Source: Filomicrobium sp. (lineage in GTDB: Bacteria; Pseudomonadota; Alphaproteobacteria; Rhizobiales; Hyphomicrobiaceae). Taken from it: 35,038 nucleotides of DNA. The translations under genes were made by a program, and so were the position numbers. The stretch's first letter is position 1. The number at the start of each line of letters is the position of its first letter. Below the pieces are notes generated by a model, which made no database searches, had not been told where the DNA came from, and worked only from the letters and a program-made list of their open reading frames with translations. Positions 1 to 10,289 of this stretch are shown one piece after another. The stretch covers positions 15,640-50,677 of the forward strand of contig NZGY01000117.1 in the NCBI GenBank assembly GCA_002689605.1, written 5' to 3'.

Positions 1-3000
1 AATTTTCTCGCGAGGATCGTTCCCCAAGAGAAGACTGAGAAGTTTGAAGTAACTGTGGATCTGGTTGCTGACATGGCAGTCATAAATCCGTTTGATTTTT
101 TCATCGAGGACTATGCTGGCGAGTGGCCGTTCACCTATCGCGAGACTGAAAAGGCAGAACTGGCGCCCTACCTCGTATGTGAACCACATGGCCCACGCCT
201 CAAGCAATATCTCAGCGATGTCGCTGCGCTGGAAACTGACAATACACTCGACTTCATTGTTGCTCTCAACCAGAAAGTCGAACAAGACATCGACTACCTT
301 ATCCGCATGGAAGCGGGTGTGCAGGCTCCCGAAACAACACTGGATCTTGGTTCCGGATCGTGTCGAGATAGTAGTTGGTTGCTGGTTCAGATCCTGCGCA
401 ACCTTGGCCTCGCTGCCCGCTTCGTGTCCGGATACCTGATCCAGCTCACACCCGACGTCAAACCGTTGGATGGGCCTGCTGGCACAGATGTCGATTTTAC
501 CGACCTCCACGCATGGGCAGAGGTATATCTGCCGGGTGCTGGATGGGTTGGCCTGGATCCAACCTCTGGTCTCCTAACTGGCGAGGGTCACATTCCACTT
601 GCCGCTGCACCACATTATTCGTCTGCCGCTCCGATTAGCGGCGGCCATGACAAGGCTGAGGTCTCGTTCGATTTTGAGATGAATGTCACGCGCCTGCGCG
701 AAAGCCCACGTGTGACCAAACCCTACACTGATGTCCAGTGGAAAGAAATCCAGGAACTCGGCGAGATTGTCGATCGGCACCTTAAGGATGGCGACGTCCG
801 CCTTACGATGGGTGGTGAGCCGACCTTTGTTTCAGTTGATGATATGGAAGGCGGCGAATGGACCAATGAGGCTGTTGGTCCGACCAAACGCAAGTTTGCC
901 GAGGACTTGGTTCGACGCCTCGCAAAGCGGTACGCCAATGGCGGCCTTATGCATTTCGGACAAGGCAAGTGGTATCCCGGCGAGCAGCTCCCGCGATGGG
1001 CATTTGCCGTTTACTGGCGTGCCGACGGCGAGCCGATCTGGACAGATGACAACCTCGTGGCCGAGGAAGTTCCTACAGAGCCAGCCGGTGTAGAAGACGC
1101 CAACAACCTCGCGAAAGAGCTTTGCCGTCAGCTGGGATTGCCATCAGATAGTGCAATAGAAGCCTATGAAGATGCAGCACACTTCGCGTTGAGCGAGCAG
1201 AAACTACCGATAGGGGTCAATGTTCGCGACAACGAGTTGGAGGATGAGGCAGAGCGCGCGCGACTGATCCGTGCATTTGATCGCGGCTTGACCACGCCGG
1301 CAGGATATGTACTTCCAATTCAGGTCTGGCAAACCAAAGATCGCGGACGTCGCTGGGTCACAGAGCGTTGGAAGACGCGCAGAGACAAACTCTATCTGAT
1401 GCCTGGCGACTCACCGATTGGATTTCGGCTTCCACTTGGTGGCCTGGCCTATCTTAGCCCTGTGCAGTATCCACATGTTCAGCAGCGGGATCCATTGAGC
1501 CAGCATGAACCGCTGCCGACCCGCACCGACATTCTATATCAGCGTCGCACGGTCACACTCGAAGCTCCACAGACTGCGCCGGGCGGCACCAATGAGGTCT
1601 TCGGAAGCGTGCGGACGGCCATGGCGATTGAAGCGCGCGACGGGCAAGTGTGTGTTTTCATGCCACCGCTCTACGATGCTGAAGACTATGCAGCCATGGC
1701 AGGTGCTATCGAGGAAGCTGCAAAGGCGTGTGCCACACCGGTTCGCATTGAAGGCTACGAGCCGCCGAGTGATCCACGATTGAACATCATCAAAGTAACT
1801 CCAGACCCGGGTGTTATCGAGGTCAATGTTCATCCTGCCAAGGACTGGTCAGAAGCTGTCGAGACAACCACGACACTCTACGAGGAAGCATTCCAGTGCC
1901 GGCTTGGAACAGAGAAATTCATGCTGGACGGCCGCCACACAGGCACCGGCGGCGGCAATCATATTGTTCTCGGTGGCGCGACACCGGCCGACAGCCCGTT
2001 TCTCCGGCGTCCAGATCTGTTATCCAGCATCATTGCTTATTGGCAGCACCGTCCATCCCTATCGTATCTCTTCTCCGGGTTGTTCATCGGGCCGACAAGT
2101 CAGGCGCCACGCGTCGACGAAGCGCGGCACGAACAGCTCTATGAGCTAGAGATTGCGATGGCGCAGGTACCAGGACCAGATGATGGTAATCAGTTGCCCC
2201 TCTGGCTCGTCGATCGCCTATTCCGCAACCTGTTGATCGACGTGACGGGCAATACGCACAGAGCTGAGGTTTGCATCGATAAACTGTATTCGCCGGATAG
2301 CTCTACCGGCCGGTTGGGTCTCATCGAGTTCCGCTCATTTGAGATGCCGCCGCATGCCCAAATGAGCCTCGCCCAGCAACTGTTACTTCGCGCGTTAATT
2401 GCAATGTTCTGGGATCGGCCTTACCGCCACTCGCTGGTTCGTTGGGGGACTGATCTACACGACCGCTACATGCTTCCACATTTCGTCTGGCAGGACTTTC
2501 AATCTGTTCTCGACGATATGCGTGCGTTTGGTTTTGCTTTTGATGACAGCTGGTTTGCGCCACACTTTGAATTCAGGTTCCCTAAGTTTGGCGAAGTGAC
2601 CTATGGCGGTGTCAACCTTGAACTTCGACAAGCCTTGGAGCCATGGCATGTGCTTGGTGAAGAGGGTGCGCCGGGAGGTACGGCGCGATACGTTGATAGT
2701 TCACTTGAACGCATACAAGTGAAGGCCAAAGGTCTCGTTCCGGGCCGCCACGCCATTCAATGCGCAGGTGTGCAAGTGCCACTCGCTGCCACTGGCACCA
2801 ACGGCGAAGGCGTTGCCGGTGTCCGCTTCCGGGCCTGGCAACCACCCAGCGCGCTACACCCAACGATCGGCATTCACACGCCGCTTATCCTGGATGTTGT
2901 TGATCTCTGGACCAACCGTTCGCTTGGTGGTTGCCGATATCATGTCTTTCATCCGGGCGGCAAAGCGCCGGATACGTTTCCGATCAATGCCTATGAAGCT

Positions 3001-3120
3001 GAAGGGCGCCGACTGGCGCGCTTCGAAGCCATGGGGCACACCGCTGGGCCGATCGAGACACCACGCAAGCTCGAAAATGCTGACTACCCTTATACTCTGG
3101 ACCTCAGACTAAGCCATTGA
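1..3120 (+). CDS. Transglutaminase-like / DUF2126 protein, 5' end cut by window edge
   Basis: The frame is open from base 1, and the residues before the first possible GTG (55) already read like this family (NFLARIVPQEKTEKF), so the true start lies upstream. Roughly 60 N-terminal residues are probably missing. An N-terminal transglutaminase-like domain shows the papain-like triad: Cys in GSGSCRDSSW (base 361), His in DLHAWAEVY (base 508) and Asp in GLDPTSG (base 556). The long C-terminal part, from about base 770 on (RLTMGGEPTF, GGGNHIVLGG, EVCIDKLYSP), is the DUF2126 domain, which has been proposed to be a glutamine-synthetase-fold amidoligase. The next two genes on the same strand encode an ATP-grasp/alpha-E protein and another transglutaminase, so it probably works with them in making or trimming a peptide product. 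The substrate is unknown. Family assignment is firm; the enzymatic role is inferred. Confidence 0.93.
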   Translation, partial: NFLARIVPQEKTEKFEVTVDLVADMAVINPFDFFIEDYAGEWPFTYRETEKAELAPYLVCEPHGPRLKQYLSDVAALETDNTLDFIVALNQKVEQDIDYLIRMEAGVQAPETTLDLGSGSCRDSSWLLVQILRNLGLAARFVSGYLIQLTPDVKPLDGPAGTDVDFTDLHAWAEVYLPGAGWVGLDPTSGLLTGEGHIPLAAAPHYSSAAPISGGHDKAEVSFDFEMNVTRLRESPRVTKPYTDVQWKEIQELGEIVDRHLKDGDVRLTMGGEPTFVSVDDMEGGEWTNEAVGPTKRKFAEDLVRRLAKRYANGGLMHFGQGKWYPGEQLPRWAFAVYWRADGEPIWTDDNLVAEEVPTEPAGVEDANNLAKELCRQLGLPSDSAIEAYEDAAHFALSEQKLPIGVNVRDNELEDEAERARLIRAFDRGLTTPAGYVLPIQVWQTKDRGRRWVTERWKTRRDKLYLMPGDSPIGFRLPLGGLAYLSPVQYPHVQQRDPLSQHEPLPTRTDILYQRRTVTLEAPQTAPGGTNEVFGSVRTAMAIEARDGQVCVFMPPLYDAEDYAAMAGAIEEAAKACATPVRIEGYEPPSDPRLNIIKVTPDPGVIEVNVHPAKDWSEAVETTTTLYEEAFQCRLGTEKFMLDGRHTGTGGGNHIVLGGATPADSPFLRRPDLLSSIIAYWQHRPSLSYLFSGLFIGPTSQAPRVDEARHEQLYELEIAMAQVPGPDDGNQLPLWLVDRLFRNLLIDVTGNTHRAEVCIDKLYSPDSSTGRLGLIEFRSFEMPPHAQMSLAQQLLLRALIAMFWDRPYRHSLVRWGTDLHDRYMLPHFVWQDFQSVLDDMRAFGFAFDDSWFAPHFEFRFPKFGEVTYGGVNLELRQALEPWHVLGEEGAPGGTARYVDSSLERIQVKAKGLVPGRHAIQCAGVQVPLAATGTNGEGVAGVRFRAWQPPSALHPTIGIHTPLILDVVDLWTNRSLGGCRYHVFHPGGKAPDTFPINAYEAEGRRLARFEAMGHTAGPIETPRKLENADYPYTLDLRLSH

Positions 3121-3200
3121 TTCCAATGTTACTCTGTCTTGTTTCCAAGGCTTGAACCAATCGTAGTTAACTCGGTTTTGGTGATAAAAAGGGCTGCGGC

Positions 3201-5888
3201 GTGACTTCGTTGCTAGCGACATTGCGAGAATTATTGCGTATACGTGGACAACGCGACGTTGCAGCCACGCTGGCGTACGACTCGGCAGACAACAGTCGCT
3301 CCGTTAGCGAGGCGATCGAGGCATTGGATAACAATAATACAGCTGTTGCGACGGCGTCTTCGTCGGGGCTCAGCAACCTCATTTCCGGTTATGGTGCTTC
3401 CGGTTACGATGAAATGATCGCAGCGGACGGCACAGTCCGCCCGCATTGGCAGGCGCTTGTCAGCTTCCTTGAAAAACAGGGCGTTGAGCGAGGCCATGCA
3501 ACGACAGAACGCATCCAGCGGCGCATCGTTGAGAATGGACTGACCCTGGATAGTTTTACCGATCCCGATAACGCTGAGCAGCCCTGGCATCTTGATCTCA
3601 TACCCTTCATTCTCTCTAGCGACGATTTTGCTCTGCTTGAACGCGCTTGTGTCCAACGCGTCCATCTCTACGAAGCACTGCTCGGCGACCTATACGTTGA
3701 GCAGAATTTACTTTCAGGAGATCTGTTGCCATCGGGGCTGGTTTTCAACGACCCGTCCTTTCTGAGGCCGCTTCATGGAATCGAATTTGGCCTGCCAAGA
3801 CTGACTTTCCTGGCGCTTGATTTCGTACGCGATAAAGACGGGCAATGGCATGTTATGGATACACATGCCGAGACACTGGCTGGGCATGGCTATGCCTTGG
3901 CAAACCGCGTCGTGCTGGCAGAGGTTTGCTCTCAACTCTTCCGCGCGTGCAACGCACGCCGGATCTCCGCGTTTTACCAGGAACTCGCGCAGGAGCTGTC
4001 TGGTCGTGCAGGAAGCAATGCTTCGAACATTGCCATCCTAGGACCTTCCCCGGATCATGAAACCTATCTCAGCCACGCCTACGTGGCGCGCTATCTCGGC
4101 TACCTTCTCATCGAGGGGGCGGATCTGAAAGTGGTAGGCGACCAAGTCTTCCACAAGACCCTAGCTGGCCTACAACAGATCGACTTGCTGGTACGAGCGG
4201 TTGAAGGTGGCAAATCTGATCCTCTCGAACTTGATCCTAGTGGCTTTCTGGGTCCCGCGGGATTAGTTGAGTCCATTCGTCAAAACCCTGCGCTCATGGC
4301 CAATACTCTGGGAACGGCAATCGTTGAGAACAGAGGGCTACCCGCTTACCTTGCCGCTTTGTCAGAGCGCATCAATGGCGAGGAACTGATTATCCCAGAC
4401 ACACCGCGCATATGGCTCGGCGAACCAGGCGCTCGCAAACAAGTCATAGCAGAATTGGATTCCTACCTGATCCGATCCGCATACGAAGCCACGGCACGGC
4501 CGGGCCATGCGCAATGTGCTTTGTCACCTGCCGATCTCGAAGATGCTTCACGTGCATCACTTATCAAGGAACTGGAACTCAACGGCGAATCCTACGTAGC
4601 CCAGAAAGCCATGCCGCTGGCCACGGCCCCTGTTTGGTCGGAACAGGGCATGAAGCCGAAGCCGACTGCAATCCGCCTGTTCGCAGCAAATACGGCAAAT
4701 GGTGTTTTTGTGATGCCTGGCGGACTGGCAATGGTGCTAGATCAAAACAACTCTGTCGGACTGGTATCCCAAACCGGTCAATCGAGCGATGTCTGGGTCA
4801 TTAGCAGTGAACCACAGGGACCGCACTACTCGAGGTGGCGGATCTCGGAAGAGGAGTCACAAGTCCAGCGTGTCGGGGCGCGCCTTCCTAGCCGCATTGC
4901 CGATAATCTTTACTGGCTCGGTCGCTATGTCGAACGTGCCGACTGGACCATGCGCGTCATGCGCAATGCGCTGAACCGTGGCGATGAAGATCTTCGGCCA
5001 ATTCGTCGAACAGAAGCTGCCGAGAATGCTATTGGCATTATTGAGTCAAAATGGGCTGAGCACAGCCCAAACGGTTCGACGAATGGAGATGTCACGCTTG
5101 AAGATCGCATTGAGGAGCTATTCTCGGCGGGAGGAAATCCTTACGGCATCCGCACCACATTTCAGAATATCCGACGTCTGGCTCGACAAACGAGAGACCG
5201 CCTTTCATTGGATGCATGGAGGCTTTTGAATGACCTCACGAGCAGGCAGCAAACCTCCTCGTCCAGCGACGCCGCAGCGCAGTTAGTTGATCGCCTGAAC
5301 AGCCGCATTGCACAACTAGCGGCATTCAATGGCCTGATGCACGAGAACATGACCCGGAACTTCGGGTGGCACTTCATGGATCTCGGACGCCGGTTAGAAC
5401 GCGCCTCTCAAATGGCCGAACTTCTGCGCCGTATTCTTGTTGAGAGCTTCGATGAGAGTGAGGAGACCGAGCGTCTCGCGTTCCTGCTTGAGACAGCTGA
5501 TAGCTTTATGACGTATCGATCGCGGTATCGTTTCGCACCAACGTTCCCGCTGGTACTCGATCTGCTTTTGATCGACGAACAGAACCCGCGCAGTCTGGCG
5601 TATCAGTTGCGCGCGGTTTCCGAACACATGACGCGGATGCCGCAAGCCTCGACGGATGCGGTGCGCACACCCGAACAACGTCTCGCACTTGATACGCTGA
5701 CGCAGGTTCGCCTCGCCGATATCGAACAGCTGCGCAATACCGATCCCAGCGGCCAACGCTCTGAACTTGCAGCGTTACTGGATGACCTGCTCGCCAAACT
5801 TCCAGAACTCTCTGATACAATTTCGAGGCGGTACTTCAGCCTCACCGAAGACCAACCGCAGCGGGTTCACACACGGCTATTGCCATGA
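3201..5888 (+). CDS. Circularly permuted ATP-grasp (type 2) / alpha-E fusion protein
   Basis: This 895-residue protein joins two domains that often occur as separate genes. Residues about 75-520 form the circularly permuted ATP-grasp domain (SGYGASGYDEM, HAETLAGHGYALANR, GDQVFHKTLAG, SDPLELDPSGFLGPAGL). From about residue 560 the helical alpha-E (DUF403) domain begins with RLPSRIADNLYWLGRYVERAD. ATP-grasp enzymes form carboxylate-amine bonds through an acyl-phosphate, so a peptide or amide ligase is expected; the acceptor is unknown. The GTG start has an AAAAAGG-like ribosome site about eight bases upstream. About 70 low-similarity residues precede the conserved core, so a later start is possible. 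The stop overlaps the next start as ATGA, so the two genes are probably translationally coupled. Confidence 0.92.
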   Translation: MTSLLATLRELLRIRGQRDVAATLAYDSADNSRSVSEAIEALDNNNTAVATASSSGLSNLISGYGASGYDEMIAADGTVRPHWQALVSFLEKQGVERGHATTERIQRRIVENGLTLDSFTDPDNAEQPWHLDLIPFILSSDDFALLERACVQRVHLYEALLGDLYVEQNLLSGDLLPSGLVFNDPSFLRPLHGIEFGLPRLTFLALDFVRDKDGQWHVMDTHAETLAGHGYALANRVVLAEVCSQLFRACNARRISAFYQELAQELSGRAGSNASNIAILGPSPDHETYLSHAYVARYLGYLLIEGADLKVVGDQVFHKTLAGLQQIDLLVRAVEGGKSDPLELDPSGFLGPAGLVESIRQNPALMANTLGTAIVENRGLPAYLAALSERINGEELIIPDTPRIWLGEPGARKQVIAELDSYLIRSAYEATARPGHAQCALSPADLEDASRASLIKELELNGESYVAQKAMPLATAPVWSEQGMKPKPTAIRLFAANTANGVFVMPGGLAMVLDQNNSVGLVSQTGQSSDVWVISSEPQGPHYSRWRISEEESQVQRVGARLPSRIADNLYWLGRYVERADWTMRVMRNALNRGDEDLRPIRRTEAAENAIGIIESKWAEHSPNGSTNGDVTLEDRIEELFSAGGNPYGIRTTFQNIRRLARQTRDRLSLDAWRLLNDLTSRQQTSSSSDAAAQLVDRLNSRIAQLAAFNGLMHENMTRNFGWHFMDLGRRLERASQMAELLRRILVESFDESEETERLAFLLETADSFMTYRSRYRFAPTFPLVLDLLLIDEQNPRSLAYQLRAVSEHMTRMPQASTDAVRTPEQRLALDTLTQVRLADIEQLRNTDPSGQRSELAALLDDLLAKLPELSDTISRRYFSLTEDQPQRVHTRLLP

Positions 5889-6796
5889 CCGGCTCCAAGA
5901 TCGCAAGATATCGGATCACACACCGGACCTCCTACAATTATGGTGCGGTGGTCAACCAATCATTCCATGTGCTGAGGCTTAGTCCGCGGGTCGTTGATCA
6001 CCAATCGATCATTCGCCATAGGCTGTCTACCGAACCTCGCTTTGAGATAAAGCCTTATCGTTTTGACTTGTTCGGCAACCCCTTCAATCTGCTGCAGATT
6101 GAATCTGATCACAACTTGCTGGTTGTGACTTCCGAGACCGAGATCGACGTTACACCACCACCAACCATTGATCTTGCAGCGACGTCAGATTGGCGAAACT
6201 TGATCGATGGTGGCGGCCCCTTGGGGCAGCTTAACGATGGCGCGAGCGTCTCTCAATACGCAGCCAACTCGCGGCACGGACGCCGCCTCAATCAACTTGC
6301 CGACTACGCTAGGCCTTCGTTTCCAGAAGGTCAGCCAATCTTGCTTGGGGTGCGTGATCTCACCCGACGCATTTTCGAAGACTTTGCTTTTGATCCCACA
6401 GCGACCGATGTCTCAACACCGGTCGAGACTGTGCTGGAATTGAAACGAGGGGTCTGTCAGGATTTTGCTCACTTACAGATTTCGGCCCTTCGTTCACTAG
6501 GCCTGCCTGCTCGCTACGTCAGCGGTTACATCCTTACTCACCCACCTGAGGGGCAAGAGAGATTGCAAGGTGCGGATGCCTCGCATGCTTGGGTATCAGT
6601 ATGGGCGCCTGAGACAGGTTGGGTCGACTTCGACCCTACCAATAATATGGTTCCCCATAACGAACACATCACGTTTGCCTATGGTCGCGACTATGATGAT
6701 GTTGCGCCAATCAGTGGCGTGCTTCTTGGCGGCGGGGCACATTCGGTTGGCGTGTCTGTCGATGTGGCGCCGCAGAAGCTTGATGATCAGACATAG
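5885..6796 (+). CDS. Transglutaminase-like cysteine protease family protein
   Basis: 303 residues. An N-terminal beta-rich domain (YRITHRTSYNYGAVVNQSFH onward) is the bacterial transglutaminase N-terminal module. The core carries the triad Cys191 (GVCQDFAHL), His234 (DASHAWVSVW) and Asp250 (WVDFDPTNN). Bacterial members of this family are thought to act as peptidases or amide-bond cleaving enzymes rather than cross-linkers. No signal peptide is visible, so a cytoplasmic location is likely. It is the third gene of the DUF2126 / ATP-grasp-alpha-E / transglutaminase cluster and overlaps its neighbour by four bases. In other genomes this set is often accompanied by the proteasome-like Anbu peptidase; none follows here, and it could lie to the left of the window. 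Confidence 0.93.
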   Translation: MTGSKIARYRITHRTSYNYGAVVNQSFHVLRLSPRVVDHQSIIRHRLSTEPRFEIKPYRFDLFGNPFNLLQIESDHNLLVVTSETEIDVTPPPTIDLAATSDWRNLIDGGGPLGQLNDGASVSQYAANSRHGRRLNQLADYARPSFPEGQPILLGVRDLTRRIFEDFAFDPTATDVSTPVETVLELKRGVCQDFAHLQISALRSLGLPARYVSGYILTHPPEGQERLQGADASHAWVSVWAPETGWVDFDPTNNMVPHNEHITFAYGRDYDDVAPISGVLLGGGAHSVGVSVDVAPQKLDDQT

Positions 6797-6836
6797 ATGT
6801 AAGAACGATTTAAATTGTTGAATTGGGGAGAGTACC

Positions 6837-7751
6837 TTGGGTACCAAGTTTTCTGCTCGCGTTGGGTACATCGGCCTCGGCGGCATGGGCCGTGGTCTTG
6901 TCAAGAACATGCTGAAACACGGCATTGATGTCACAGTCAACGACCTCAACCAGCAAGCAGTTTCGAATGTGATTGAACTTGGTGCCAAATCTGAAAGCGA
7001 TATTCTTGCGATCGCGGGTGATGTCGATGTTCTCGGTATCTGCATCACGACGGCGGAAGCTGTTCAAAGCTTGATGCTGGGGGAAGATGGTGCGCTCTCC
7101 ATGATGAAGAGCGGCGCCGTTCTTCTAGATAACACAACGACCTCACCAGAGCACGTGGAAACGATGGCGTCCGCATGTGAACGTCTCGGCGTGCGTTACT
7201 GCGAGGCTCCAATGACGCGTACGCCGATGCATGCAGATCGCGGTGAAGTCAACATTCTGTTCGGTGGCGAGGAAGACTTGCTGGCCGAGCTAACGCCCTT
7301 ATTCGAGACATATGCCGAAAACATCTTCCATGTTGGCCCTGCTGGACATGCCATAAGACTCAAGCTGATCCACAACTACATCGCGTTTACCAATGTCTTG
7401 AGTTGGTGCGAGGGCTTTGCCCTCGCGGCCAAGGATGGCCTCGACATGACAAAGGTCATCGGCATCATTTCCGCCGCAGGTGGAAAGTCGGGAATGATGG
7501 ACCTCTACGGCGAGGCTACACTCAATAGAGACTTCGCTCAGCATATATCTTTGGACAATGCCATGAAGGATGTGCGCTACTACGCACGTTGGCTGGAGCA
7601 GGCTGGCCTTCCCGGATTCGTTGCAGATTCAGTCCATCAAATGTACGCGCTGGCATCCAACAAAGGACATGGTGACGAAGGCTGTACCGCGGTCATCAAA
7701 GCTTATGAAGAATTGACAGGGATTGAGGCACGCCTTCCTCCCAAGTCCTGA
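6837..7751 (+). CDS. NAD(P)-dependent beta-hydroxyacid dehydrogenase family protein (variant substrate loop)
   Basis: 304 residues, normal length for the 3-hydroxyisobutyrate dehydrogenase / tartronate semialdehyde reductase superfamily. The Rossmann motif is GYIGLGGMG at residues 10-18, and the catalytic Lys176 lies in RLKLIHN with Asn180 following. The usual substrate-binding loop, DAPVSGG in typical members, reads EAPMTRTP at residues 123-130. The Ser-Gly-Gly is therefore lost and an Arg-Thr pair introduced, so the substrate is probably not a standard hydroxyisobutyrate-like acid. The TTG start is supported by a GGGGAG ribosome site six bases upstream. It follows the transglutaminase gene by 40 bases and could be read with it, although no functional link is obvious. 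Confidence 0.9.
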   Translation: MGTKFSARVGYIGLGGMGRGLVKNMLKHGIDVTVNDLNQQAVSNVIELGAKSESDILAIAGDVDVLGICITTAEAVQSLMLGEDGALSMMKSGAVLLDNTTTSPEHVETMASACERLGVRYCEAPMTRTPMHADRGEVNILFGGEEDLLAELTPLFETYAENIFHVGPAGHAIRLKLIHNYIAFTNVLSWCEGFALAAKDGLDMTKVIGIISAAGGKSGMMDLYGEATLNRDFAQHISLDNAMKDVRYYARWLEQAGLPGFVADSVHQMYALASNKGHGDEGCTAVIKAYEELTGIEARLPPKS

Positions 7752-7834
7752 GAAATCCGCTATTGCTCTTGCCGTTTTGCAATCCTTTCGTGGGAGAAGC
7801 GATCGATGTCTCGTGCTTAGGCCGCACTCAATTT

Positions 7835-7881
7835 CAGGTGTTTTGATCGCTATTTTCGGATTTTGATCGCGGGCACACCTG
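7835..7881. promoter_or_regulatory. Inverted repeat enclosing a phased direct repeat upstream of the peroxiredoxin gene
   Basis: CAGGTGT at 7835-7841 is matched by ACACCTG at 7875-7881. Inside lie two exact copies of TTTTGATCGC, at 7841-7850 and 7861-7870, with start points exactly 20 bases apart, about two helical turns. The arrangement sits in a 180-base gap just before the peroxiredoxin-like gene. It could bind a regulator in tandem on one DNA face. No factor is identified. Confidence 0.35.
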
Positions 7882-7929
7882 ATATTCACTCTGACAGCAC
7901 CAGAAACGATGTTGTCAGGACATACAGAC

Positions 7930-8466
7930 ATGCTGATCCCACGTCAGAAGACGCCTTCTCTAGCAGTTGAGACACTGAAGAACGGAGCATTCGATCTATC
8001 GGCGCAATCCGCGGAGCGCGGTACTGTGATCTGCCTCTATCGTGGACTTCACTGTCCGATCTGCGCCAACTACCTCAGCGAACTTGAGAAGCAAACACCA
8101 GCCTTCAGAGAGCGCGGAGTAGACACCATTGCTATCAGCTCGGATGATCAGGAGCGCACCCAAGCGATGGCTGAAAAGATCAATGCAACAAACCTGAAAT
8201 TTGGTTATGGACTGCCTCTTACGAATGCGAGGGAATGGGGGCTGTATATCTCCACATCGCGCGGCAAAACCTCCATTGGCATTGAAGAACCTGCACTATT
8301 TTCCAAGCCAGGTTTGTTTATGGTGACACCTGAACAAACGCTCTATTATGGCTCTGTTCAAACCATGCCATTCGTCCGCCCACACTTCTCAGAACTTGTA
8401 GCTGCGCTTGATTTCGCGATTGCCAATAGTTATCCAGCGCGCGGTGAATTTACCGGCGCAGTTTAG
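7930..8466 (+). CDS. Peroxiredoxin-like (AhpC/TSA, thioredoxin-fold) protein
   Basis: 178 residues from the chosen start. A CxxC motif, Cys42-Pro-Ile-Cys45 in YRGLHCPICANYL, sits at the thioredoxin-fold active site. The AhpC/TSA-like sequence continues with DTIAISSDDQERTQAMAEK and GLFMVTPEQTLYYGSVQTMPF. The family reduces peroxides or acts as a thiol oxidoreductase; the exact substrate is unknown. ATG 7930 is preferred because AGGA lies nine bases upstream and MLIPRQKTPSL resembles the usual beginning of the family. An in-frame ATG at 7909 lacks a convincing ribosome site. The gene stands alone between a dehydrogenase and a HAD hydrolase. Confidence 0.85.
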   Translation: MLIPRQKTPSLAVETLKNGAFDLSAQSAERGTVICLYRGLHCPICANYLSELEKQTPAFRERGVDTIAISSDDQERTQAMAEKINATNLKFGYGLPLTNAREWGLYISTSRGKTSIGIEEPALFSKPGLFMVTPEQTLYYGSVQTMPFVRPHFSELVAALDFAIANSYPARGEFTGAV

Positions 8467-8588
8467 TCAGTCGGCAGCCAGCAAGCTTAATCTCGCGTCG
8501 TCAGAGATTGCATAAGTGCTTCCGACAGTTGCAGTATGGCGATGTATATTCCACGCCGGCCACTTTGGACTCACTGAAAGGAACTAAG

Positions 8589-9311
8589 ATGAGCTTAAGC
8601 GATGTACGGGCCCTGACTTTTGATACCGGCGGCACGATCCTTGATTGGCATACTGGATTTAAGACGATCCTCTCAGAGACCGGCGCGAAGCATGGCCTTG
8701 AGCGAAACTGGCACGATATTGCGAACGATATTCGTCGAAAAGGTCTCGGCAAAATGCTGAACCTGGGCAAAGACGAACCACCGGGTTACAACTTCGACGG
8801 CGCCCACCGGATGGCATTGGAAGAAGTCATTACGGAAAATGGCCTTGAGGCTTTTACTGAAGAAGAGCGTCATACCATTGCTTACGATGCGCCGCACAAC
8901 TTCGAGTGCTGGTCTGACTTTCCTGCTGTCCTGCCAAAGTTGCGCGAGAAGTATATGTGCGCATCATTCACGATCTTGAGCTTCCGCATCATCATGGATA
9001 CGGCACGGCGTAACGGACTGTCATGGGACGCCGTGTTCTCCTGCGAGGCAATTGGCAAGTACAAGATCTTGCCTGAAGCGTACGATACCGTCGCGCACTA
9101 TCTGCAGCTTGAGCCTTCGCAGATTTGTATGGTTGCCTGCCACAACTTTGATCTCGATGCTGCCAAGAGCCGGGGCTACAACACGGCATTTGTTAAGCGC
9201 CCACGTGAATGGGGCAATGACAGCCCACCAGATCCAGAACCAAACCCGATCCACGATATCATCGTCGATGACTTTCCATCGCTTGCAAACGCACTCGGCG
9301 CAAATCCGTAA
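8589..9311 (+). CDS. HAD-superfamily hydrolase, type II haloacid dehalogenase-like
   Basis: 240 residues. Motif I is LTFDTGGTILDW with the nucleophile Asp12. The second aspartate of phosphatase-type HADs is replaced by glycine, as in dehalogenases, which do not have DxD. Motif II is the Ser of FTILSF, motif III the Lys of IGKYKILPEAY, and motif IV CHNFDLDAAKSRGY, close to the AAHxxDLxAA pattern of L-2-haloacid dehalogenases. Hydrolytic dehalogenation of a small 2-haloacid is plausible, but phosphatase activity cannot be excluded from sequence. ATG 8589 has GAAAGGA six to seven bases upstream. A longer in-frame start at 8508 is not favoured. A GST gene follows after 33 bases, so the two may be co-transcribed. 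Confidence 0.87.
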   Translation: MSLSDVRALTFDTGGTILDWHTGFKTILSETGAKHGLERNWHDIANDIRRKGLGKMLNLGKDEPPGYNFDGAHRMALEEVITENGLEAFTEEERHTIAYDAPHNFECWSDFPAVLPKLREKYMCASFTILSFRIIMDTARRNGLSWDAVFSCEAIGKYKILPEAYDTVAHYLQLEPSQICMVACHNFDLDAAKSRGYNTAFVKRPREWGNDSPPDPEPNPIHDIIVDDFPSLANALGANP

Positions 9312-9344
9312 TCGCGATTACTGATTGAGAAGAAGGAACTTAAT

Positions 9345-10289
9345 GTGTCTGATGCGGCCTCTGAAATAATCCTGCACAATTATCCGCAATCGCCCGTTGC
9401 CGAAAAGGTCAGGGTTGCACTCGGTATTAAGCGCCTCGGTTGGCGGGACGTTGAAATCCCGCGCCTGCCACCAAAGCCAATGCTGACGCCACTGACCGGT
9501 GGTTATCGCCGCACTCCCGTCATGCAAATTGGCGCGGATATCTACTGTGACAGCCAGGAAATTGTCCGCGAGCTTGAACGGCGCCATCCCAACCCAACTT
9601 ATATGCCGACCACGGAAGTCGGCCTGATGTGGGCTCTCAGTCGTTGGACCGATGGCGCATTTTTTGATCTCGCAGTGAAGCTCGTTCTTGGTTCCGCAGG
9701 AGATGCATTGCCTCAAGACTTTGCTGAAGATCGCGGGCGTCTCTATCTGGGTGCAGACTGGGCCGAAGGCCTCAAGAAAGCCAATGCCCAGCTACCCCAT
9801 CTTGTATCGCAGATGCGTGCGCCGCTGTCATGGCTCAACATGCAACTGCGCGATGGCCGTCCCTTCTTGCTCGGCACAGAGCCAGCCGCTATCGATGCCC
9901 AGATCTACTATGTTGTCTGGTTTGTCCGTGGGCGTTGGGATGGTGGCCCTTCCATGCTCTCGGAGTTTACCGATTTGGTCCGATGGGAAACCAACGTCCG
10001 CGAACTTGGCCATGGACCTTACAGTGCGATGAGCCCTGAAGACGCCATTGCCCGTGCTAAGAGCCTCGATCCAGTAACACCAAAAGGTGTGGCCTCGAAT
10101 GATCCGCAAGGCCTAACAGTTGGCGTGCCGGTCACGGTTCACCCTGATGTGGATGGAGGAGAACAACCTGTCGAAGGCACTGTCCGCTATGCGGATGCAG
10201 AACCCCTTGCCGTTGAGAGGACCAGCGAAGAGGCCGGAACGGTTTGCGTTCACTTTCCTCGAGCTGGCTATCGAATAGATATAAGCTGA
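9345..10289 (+). CDS. Glutathione S-transferase family protein
   Basis: 314 residues. The N-terminal thioredoxin-like GST fold is clear: LHNYPQSPVAEKVRVAL supplies the glutathione-activating Ser or Thr region, RRTPVMQIG holds the cis-proline, and IYCDSQEIVRELE is the gamma-glutamyl-binding Ser-Gln turn position. A helical C-terminal domain follows, then an extra 60-residue beta-rich tail (VGVPVTVHPDVDG to the end) that ordinary GSTs lack. Glutathione conjugation or glutathione-dependent dehalogenation is likely. The latter would suit the upstream dehalogenase-like gene, but that is inference. The GTG start has AAGGAAC seven bases upstream. Confidence 0.88.
   Translation: MSDAASEIILHNYPQSPVAEKVRVALGIKRLGWRDVEIPRLPPKPMLTPLTGGYRRTPVMQIGADIYCDSQEIVRELERRHPNPTYMPTTEVGLMWALSRWTDGAFFDLAVKLVLGSAGDALPQDFAEDRGRLYLGADWAEGLKKANAQLPHLVSQMRAPLSWLNMQLRDGRPFLLGTEPAAIDAQIYYVVWFVRGRWDGGPSMLSEFTDLVRWETNVRELGHGPYSAMSPEDAIARAKSLDPVTPKGVASNDPQGLTVGVPVTVHPDVDGGEQPVEGTVRYADAEPLAVERTSEEAGTVCVHFPRAGYRIDIS

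Follow-up and report, generated by a model that had tools for sequence, protein, structure and literature searches.

The gene cluster examined here raises the question of which of its proteins forms an amide bond. It lies at the beginning of a 35,038-nucleotide stretch of Filomicrobium sp. DNA (this whole stretch is referred to below as the window) and it encodes a transglutaminase-DUF2126 fusion protein, a circularly permuted ATP-grasp protein fused to an alpha-E domain, and a separate transglutaminase-like protein. In a preliminary description, the ATP-grasp protein was regarded as the probable amide-forming enzyme and its fusion was taken as evidence that alpha-E works in the ligase step. 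That a careful alignment might show the catalytic residues of the ATP-grasp to be missing had been named beforehand as the observation that would tell against this assignment, and it is largely what was found: most of these residues are lost from the window's copy and throughout the fused subfamily. We consider it reasonably probable, based upon the results described below, that DUF2126 is the ATP-dependent ligase of the cluster and that the fused ATP-grasp/alpha-E protein is a non-catalytic partner.

A system comprised of an ATP-grasp protein, a glutamine synthetase (GS)-like ligase, alpha-E, transglutaminase, and the Anbu peptidase was reportedly predicted by Iyer et al. 2009. We take its GS-like ligase to be DUF2126, and Anbu is frequent, though not universal, in systems of this type. 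The window's cluster shares with this system a circularly permuted ATP-grasp, an alpha-E domain with the ER motif, a transglutaminase in the same gene row and the GS-like ligase (DUF2126), whereas it differs in that its genome lacks Anbu, ATP-grasp and alpha-E are fused, and the fused ATP-grasp is without most of its catalytic residues. The cluster is an unexceptional example of a system that was already predicted, but the roles of its proteins differ from those first proposed, DUF2126 being the likely ligase and the fused protein a likely non-catalytic partner. The system is cited in the accessible portions of PMC5666114 and PMC6376114. No description of DUF2126 or of an inactive fused ATP-grasp was found in the literature searched; Iyer et al. 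2009 may already call the fused copy inactive.

Organization and Conservation of the Gene Trio

The three genes are intact open frames, all on the forward strand (1–3120, 3201–5888, and 5885–6796 in the list of open reading frames), and the window contains no undetermined bases. The first of these (1–3120) matches the Pfam families Bact_transglu_N, Transglut_core, and DUF2126 (E = 0); in full it spans L004 12461–15760 and encodes 1099 amino acids (aa), starting 180 bases to the left of the window. Due to undetermined bases (N) at L004 11900–12700, within and ahead of its 5′ part, the exact start codon of this gene is uncertain. The putative GS-like ligase domain DUF2126 occupies positions 649–3108, as indicated by the Pfam range, a structural model and invariant candidate ligands. 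The second gene (3201–5888) encodes an 895 aa protein, in which the ATP-grasp part is degenerate; it matches CP_ATPgrasp_2 (E = 2.4e-95), CP_ATPgrasp_1, and Alpha-E (E = 2.4e-73). Its ATP-grasp-fold domain (residues 68–534; 3402–4802) was delimited by a phmmer match and structural similarity to 3n6x, and its alpha-E domain (residues 562–879; 4884–5837), identified by Pfam, retains the ER motif as E578-R579. The third gene (5885–6796) encodes a 303 aa protein with matches to Bact_transglu_N and Transglut_core. NCBIfam provides no name for any of these three proteins.

The existence of a conserved trio of peptide-ligase type, as first described, is thus borne out by three intact frames and their Pfam domains. 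Eighty named loci from several phyla show this architecture too, a recurrence far beyond chance, and members of the fused subfamily occur in seven or more bacterial phyla. The fused gene is followed immediately by a transglutaminase gene in 38 of 38 and 76 of 80 loci. The portrayal of the trio as two amidases flanking a ligase is correct in regard to the presence of the transglutaminase domains, but it leaves out DUF2126, which makes up the larger part of the first gene and is itself a putative ligase. Similarly, the coupling by ATGA that was noted for the cluster holds at the junction of the fused gene and the transglutaminase gene, where stop and start overlap (5885–5888), but not between the first two genes, which are separated by 80 bases; an overlap of this type is found at 90 of 116 fused genes. 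Co-transcription of the trio is suggested by spacing and conserved gene order, and a scan of positions 2900–7000 for terminators and promoters was uninformative.

Loss of Most of the Nucleotide and Metal Site in the Fused Proteins

The fused ATP-grasp was compared with its free-standing relatives in an alignment of 119 fused and 81 free-standing proteins, which included both copies from the window genome. Of the fused proteins, 39 are from the window's phylum (from 39 of the 49 genomes bearing a fused copy; the other 10 were not fetched), whereas the remaining ones are the best 80 among at least 587 confirmed stretches, chosen by their similarity to the window's fused protein. Eight residues were used as diagnostic, viz. 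E156, N158, K317, K364, G371, G373, D424, and N455, numbered according to the free-standing copy on contig C52 of the window genome. The first four answer by motif to E330, N332, K498, and K533 of E. coli Gss, the letters of which were checked and which we take to be Mg and ATP ligands. All eight residues are present in 80 of the 81 free-standing proteins, the exception (L129_S1) being cut by the end of its locus. The fused proteins retain none (35 proteins), one (61), two (22), or three (1) of them; E156, N158, and K317 are each found in a single fused protein and K364 in 45. A GGxG motif at the loop is present in 80/81 free-standing proteins as opposed to 1/119 fused ones. In the window, the site of the ATP-binding Lys and Gly-rich loop (4473–4529, forward strand) reads IRSAYEATARPGHAQCALSP, compared with VKEVHGSGGYGMLIGP in the intact C52 copy. 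The window's protein retains one of the eight residues and is without the GGxG loop; in its own numbering D220 stands for the Mg-site Glu and H222 for the Asn, the two ATP lysines have given way to R378 and R425, and equivalents of D424 and N455 are absent.

A structural model of the fused protein, with a predicted local distance difference test score (pLDDT) of 82.7 and a predicted template modeling score (pTM) of 0.81, aligns with the free-standing ATP-grasp 3n6x from M. flagellatus (Z 41.6) and with E. coli Gss and YgiC (Z about 20–23); its alpha-E part gave no convincing structural match. The fused copy is like these proteins in fold. In contrast, the Mg-site Glu and Asn, the two ATP lysines and the Gly-rich loop, which are kept by 3n6x and (by motif) Gss, are replaced in it. 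Across the whole fused subfamily the fold is kept and most of the nucleotide/metal site is gone. The two kinds of ATP-grasp domain are parted by a single branch of length 1.4, with a Shimodaira–Hasegawa-like approximate likelihood ratio test support of 100, in a quick IQ-TREE analysis that contained several long branches. In the alpha-E domain, 14 of 23 positions conserved in the free-standing form, including the ER motif, are also retained in at least 80% of the fused ones. The mean column identity is 43% for the fused protein versus 57% for the DUF2126 protein.

The old Mg motif has been replaced in a regular manner. Among the 119 fused proteins, D157 is kept in 111, N158 is changed to Arg in 100 and R160 to Gln in 94, and S166 is Gly in all of them. 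Because subfamily-specific residues have taken the place of this motif, the fused ATP-grasp looks repurposed rather than decayed.

It could be argued that the fused ATP-grasp is nonetheless an active amide-forming ligase, which alpha-E serves in cis, and that the Asp, His, Arg, and Arg of the window's copy still bind Mg-ATP. The fully kept fold, the retention of D207, R332, and R492 (window numbering) and the conservative nature of the four substitutions in the window's clade speak for such activity. On the other hand, besides the missing loop and the lost equivalents of D424 and N455, even similar residues are absent from 116 of the 119 fused proteins and the genome also encodes an intact paralogue, and we regard an active fused ligase as quite unlikely.

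DUF2126 as Candidate Ligase

In Pfam, the name ATP-grasp is given to the fused protein, and DUF2126 is entered as a domain of unknown function that may be a ligase, its match here being described as "Putative amidoligase" (E = 0). A model of window positions 1–3117 (pLDDT 78.4, pTM 0.70) aligns with glutamine synthetases with Z up to 16.6 (root mean square deviation 4.1, 279 residues), and also with YbdK (Z 13.8), the depupylase Dop (Z 12.7), and a plant glutamate-cysteine ligase (Z 12.4); a plain Foldseek run gave weak matches to the GS fold. The alignments with the glutamine synthetase/YbdK/Dop superfamily cover 253–279 residues. DUF2126 differs from this superfamily in that identity is about 10%, there is no match at the profile level, and a transglutaminase is fused at its N-terminus. 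Profile comparisons of DUF2126 with GlnA, and of the free-standing ATP-grasp with E. coli Gss, gave no significant match, and hence the correspondences to GlnA and Gss rest on folds and motifs. Six residues (E273, E607, N609, H654, E776, and R778 in the numbering of window 1–3117) are invariant in 38 of 38 DUF2126 proteins and are candidate metal or substrate ligands; they sit in short motifs that, matched by eye, run in the same order as those of E. coli GlnA.

The trio is the DUF2126 module of the bacterial ATP-grasp/alpha-E/transglutaminase amidoligase system. In the mechanism that we propose, DUF2126 would form an amide bond in an ATP-dependent manner. The transglutaminase domain attached to DUF2126 and the separate transglutaminase may share its substrate and there cut or transfer amides, and the degenerate ATP-grasp pocket and alpha-E of the fused protein would either bind substrate or dock intact ATP-grasp and alpha-E proteins encoded elsewhere. 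If this is correct, work on this orphan pathway should begin with DUF2126 and the free-standing ATP-grasp, and failure of the fused protein in an assay would be no sign of a dead pathway. The residues named above make the long-standing question of what the system makes amenable to testing.

In two loci (L046 and L047), DUF2126 is found alongside a free-standing ATP-grasp, alpha-E, and transglutaminase, and the fused gene is absent from the locus. These loci indicate that DUF2126 can do without a fused partner.

Co-occurrence and Gene Order

Among 160 genomes of the window's phylum, alpha-E was present in 90 and DUF2126 in 51. A fused alpha-E was found in 49 of them, and all 49 also contained a free-standing alpha-E (rows classed by our own reading); DUF2126 accompanied the fused copy in 46 of the 49, being absent from G024, G114, and G124. 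We also examined 38 further genomes, reached from the named loci and chosen for holding a fused copy rather than drawn at random, which include Acidobacteria, Planctomycetes, Verrucomicrobia, Algoriphagus, a Fibrobacteres metagenome-assembled genome, and Desulfuromonas. Both forms were present in 36 of these, so that in total a free-standing alpha-E accompanies the fused copy in 85 of 87 genomes. The locus of the fused copy also contains a free-standing ATP-grasp in 21 of 38 and 17 of 80 cases. Where a locus has both DUF2126 and the fused gene, the latter lies downstream on the same strand in 27 of 36 and in 63 of 64 cases. One acidobacterial locus (Bryobacterales; L142 1538–13575) carries, within about 12 kb, both a fused and a free-standing set, DUF2126, and four transglutaminase genes that stand alone.

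The near-obligatory co-occurrence with the free-standing set and the frequent linkage to it would also be expected if the fused protein were a pseudo-subunit with a regulatory or structural role toward the free-standing ATP-grasp/alpha-E, forming a heteromer that sets its activity or specificity, with DUF2126 carrying out a separate step. However, the fused copy also tracks DUF2126 and normally sits downstream of it on the same strand, which favors DUF2126 as its partner, and such a pseudo-subunit role seems to us unlikely.

As the fused ATP-grasp is degenerate, the fusion provides no support for the notion that alpha-E takes part in the ligase step. A link between alpha-E and the ligase is plausible on other grounds, because free-standing ATP-grasp genes that keep their residues still adjoin a free-standing alpha-E gene; the residues are intact in the free-standing ATP-grasps examined next to such genes. 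For a free-standing homologue of Yersinia bercovieri, release of phosphate from ATP has been observed (PMC6376114), which speaks for the main reading given here.

A more elaborate and rather doubtful possibility is that the fused subfamily represents a repurposed pseudo-ligase, whose old ATP pocket, with its new conserved motif (typically [GAS]-D-R-T-Q-A-P-S-G-x-G-Y-A-L-E-N-R), would be a docking platform for handing a peptide over between DUF2126 and the intact ATP-grasp, in a two-ligase assembly line operating under nitrogen stress. The Pseudomonas rlo and rim operons, as presented in excerpts of PMC12239564, are similarly amidoligase/protease gene sets, one of which has a dead enzyme (RloB) as partner; they differ in that their ATP-grasp is likened to RimK and it is the transglutaminase, not the ligase, that is inactive.

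Several observations weigh against a non-catalytic fused protein acting beside DUF2126. The pocket residues D143 (110/119), R271 (118/119), and R426 (119/119) are still conserved in the fused copies, and therefore the pocket probably still has a ligand, which might be a nucleotide. Overall, 63 of 145 positions conserved in the free-standing ATP-grasp are retained in the fused form, and when six sites were fixed from E. coli Gss alone, two were retained and the loss was no greater than at conserved positions generally (P = 0.47); a nine-site test gave P = 0.005, with its sites picked after the alignment had been seen. Three of the 119 fused proteins, those of L004 (the window), L089, and L090, are the only ones with an acid at E156 together with Lys or Arg at K317 and K364, and since chemically similar residues are thus kept at lost sites in this small clade alone, the case against residual ATP binding is weakest for the window's copy. 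Five of the 51 genomes with DUF2126 (G036, G049, G064, G076, and G081) lack a fused alpha-E, and DUF2126 is therefore not strictly dependent upon it. Of the 38 further genomes, two (G161 and G169, both metagenome-assembled) showed only the fused copy. Lastly, the proteins of the Y. bercovieri operon showed no specific interaction with Anbu as bait in the part of PMC6376114 available.

Indications of Nitrogen Regulation

Sigma54-like sites were sought within 300 bases of gene starts, as called mechanically. They were found at 29 of 82 free-standing sets (this group includes one misfiled fused protein, L045, whose alpha-E was missed by BLAST), compared with a mean of 3.5 and a maximum of 8 in 40 shuffles; by a stricter criterion 14 sets had a site versus a shuffle mean of 0.4. 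Such sites were present at 9 of 95 DUF2126 genes (shuffle mean 3.4, maximum 7) and 2 of 117 fused genes. The enrichment at the free-standing sets suggests that they are widely controlled by nitrogen limitation. Sigma54 control of the window's own cluster was considered and rejected, as neither of the two sets in the window genome showed such a site in its 400 upstream bases.

In an ntrC mutant of Burkholderia cenocepacia under nitrogen limitation, the neighboring DUF404/407, DUF403, transglutaminase, and large transglutaminase-like genes were down by log2 8.2, 9.4, 9.4, and 6.0, respectively (PMC5491218, in part); it is our guess that the last of these encodes a DUF2126 protein. A tie between DUF403/404/407 and urea metabolism in marine metagenomes is indicated in the accessible text of PMC3597751.

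This regulation of related genes, and the sigma54-like sites upstream of free-standing sets, would also suit a unit that makes no ligation product and instead degrades peptides to scavenge nitrogen, the transglutaminase-type amidases freeing ammonia or glutamate and DUF2126 being a hydrolase like Dop, which it also resembles. We hold this to be very improbable, since the resemblance of DUF2126 to glutamine synthetase is stronger and neither set of the window genome has a sigma54-like site.

Transglutaminase Domains, the Second Gene Set and Neighboring Genes

The intact Cys-His-Asp triads attributed to both transglutaminases are confirmed for the DUF2126 protein, where they are invariant in 20 of 20 and 38 of 38 proteins in two alignments. 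In the third gene the same residues are visible in its own sequence (GVCQD, SHAW, and DFDPT).

The second set of the window genome (G000) is located on contig C52 (L005 1306–8072), unlinked to the window, and consists in a row of a free-standing ATP-grasp (470 aa) with intact residues, alpha-E (309 aa), and transglutaminase (278 aa). It lies end to end with urease genes, of which ureF and a ureG-like gene were recognized by Pfam and the others by look. Urease linkage was rejected as a general rule, because among 162 loci a urease match was seen only at L005 itself and L070, within the flanks covered.

The genome (97.4% complete) contains no Anbu, its only proteasome-family gene being HslV (named from its length and its neighbor) next to HslU. 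Neither of the genes that had been suggested to the left of base 1 came to light there: Anbu is absent, and no small substrate-peptide gene was noticed by eye, with no systematic search for conserved small open reading frames having been made. Instead, L004 8251–11931 is occupied by a divergent cluster of DUF1513, imelysin (Peptidase_M75), and di-haem oxidoreductase genes. To the right of the trio, on the same strand (6837–10289), are genes for an NAD-binding dehydrogenase, an AhpC/TSA-like (peroxiredoxin-like) protein, a protein with a weak HAD-hydrolase match that is below the Pfam cut-off, and a glutathione S-transferase (GST)-like protein; the dehydrogenase gene begins 40 bases past the transglutaminase.

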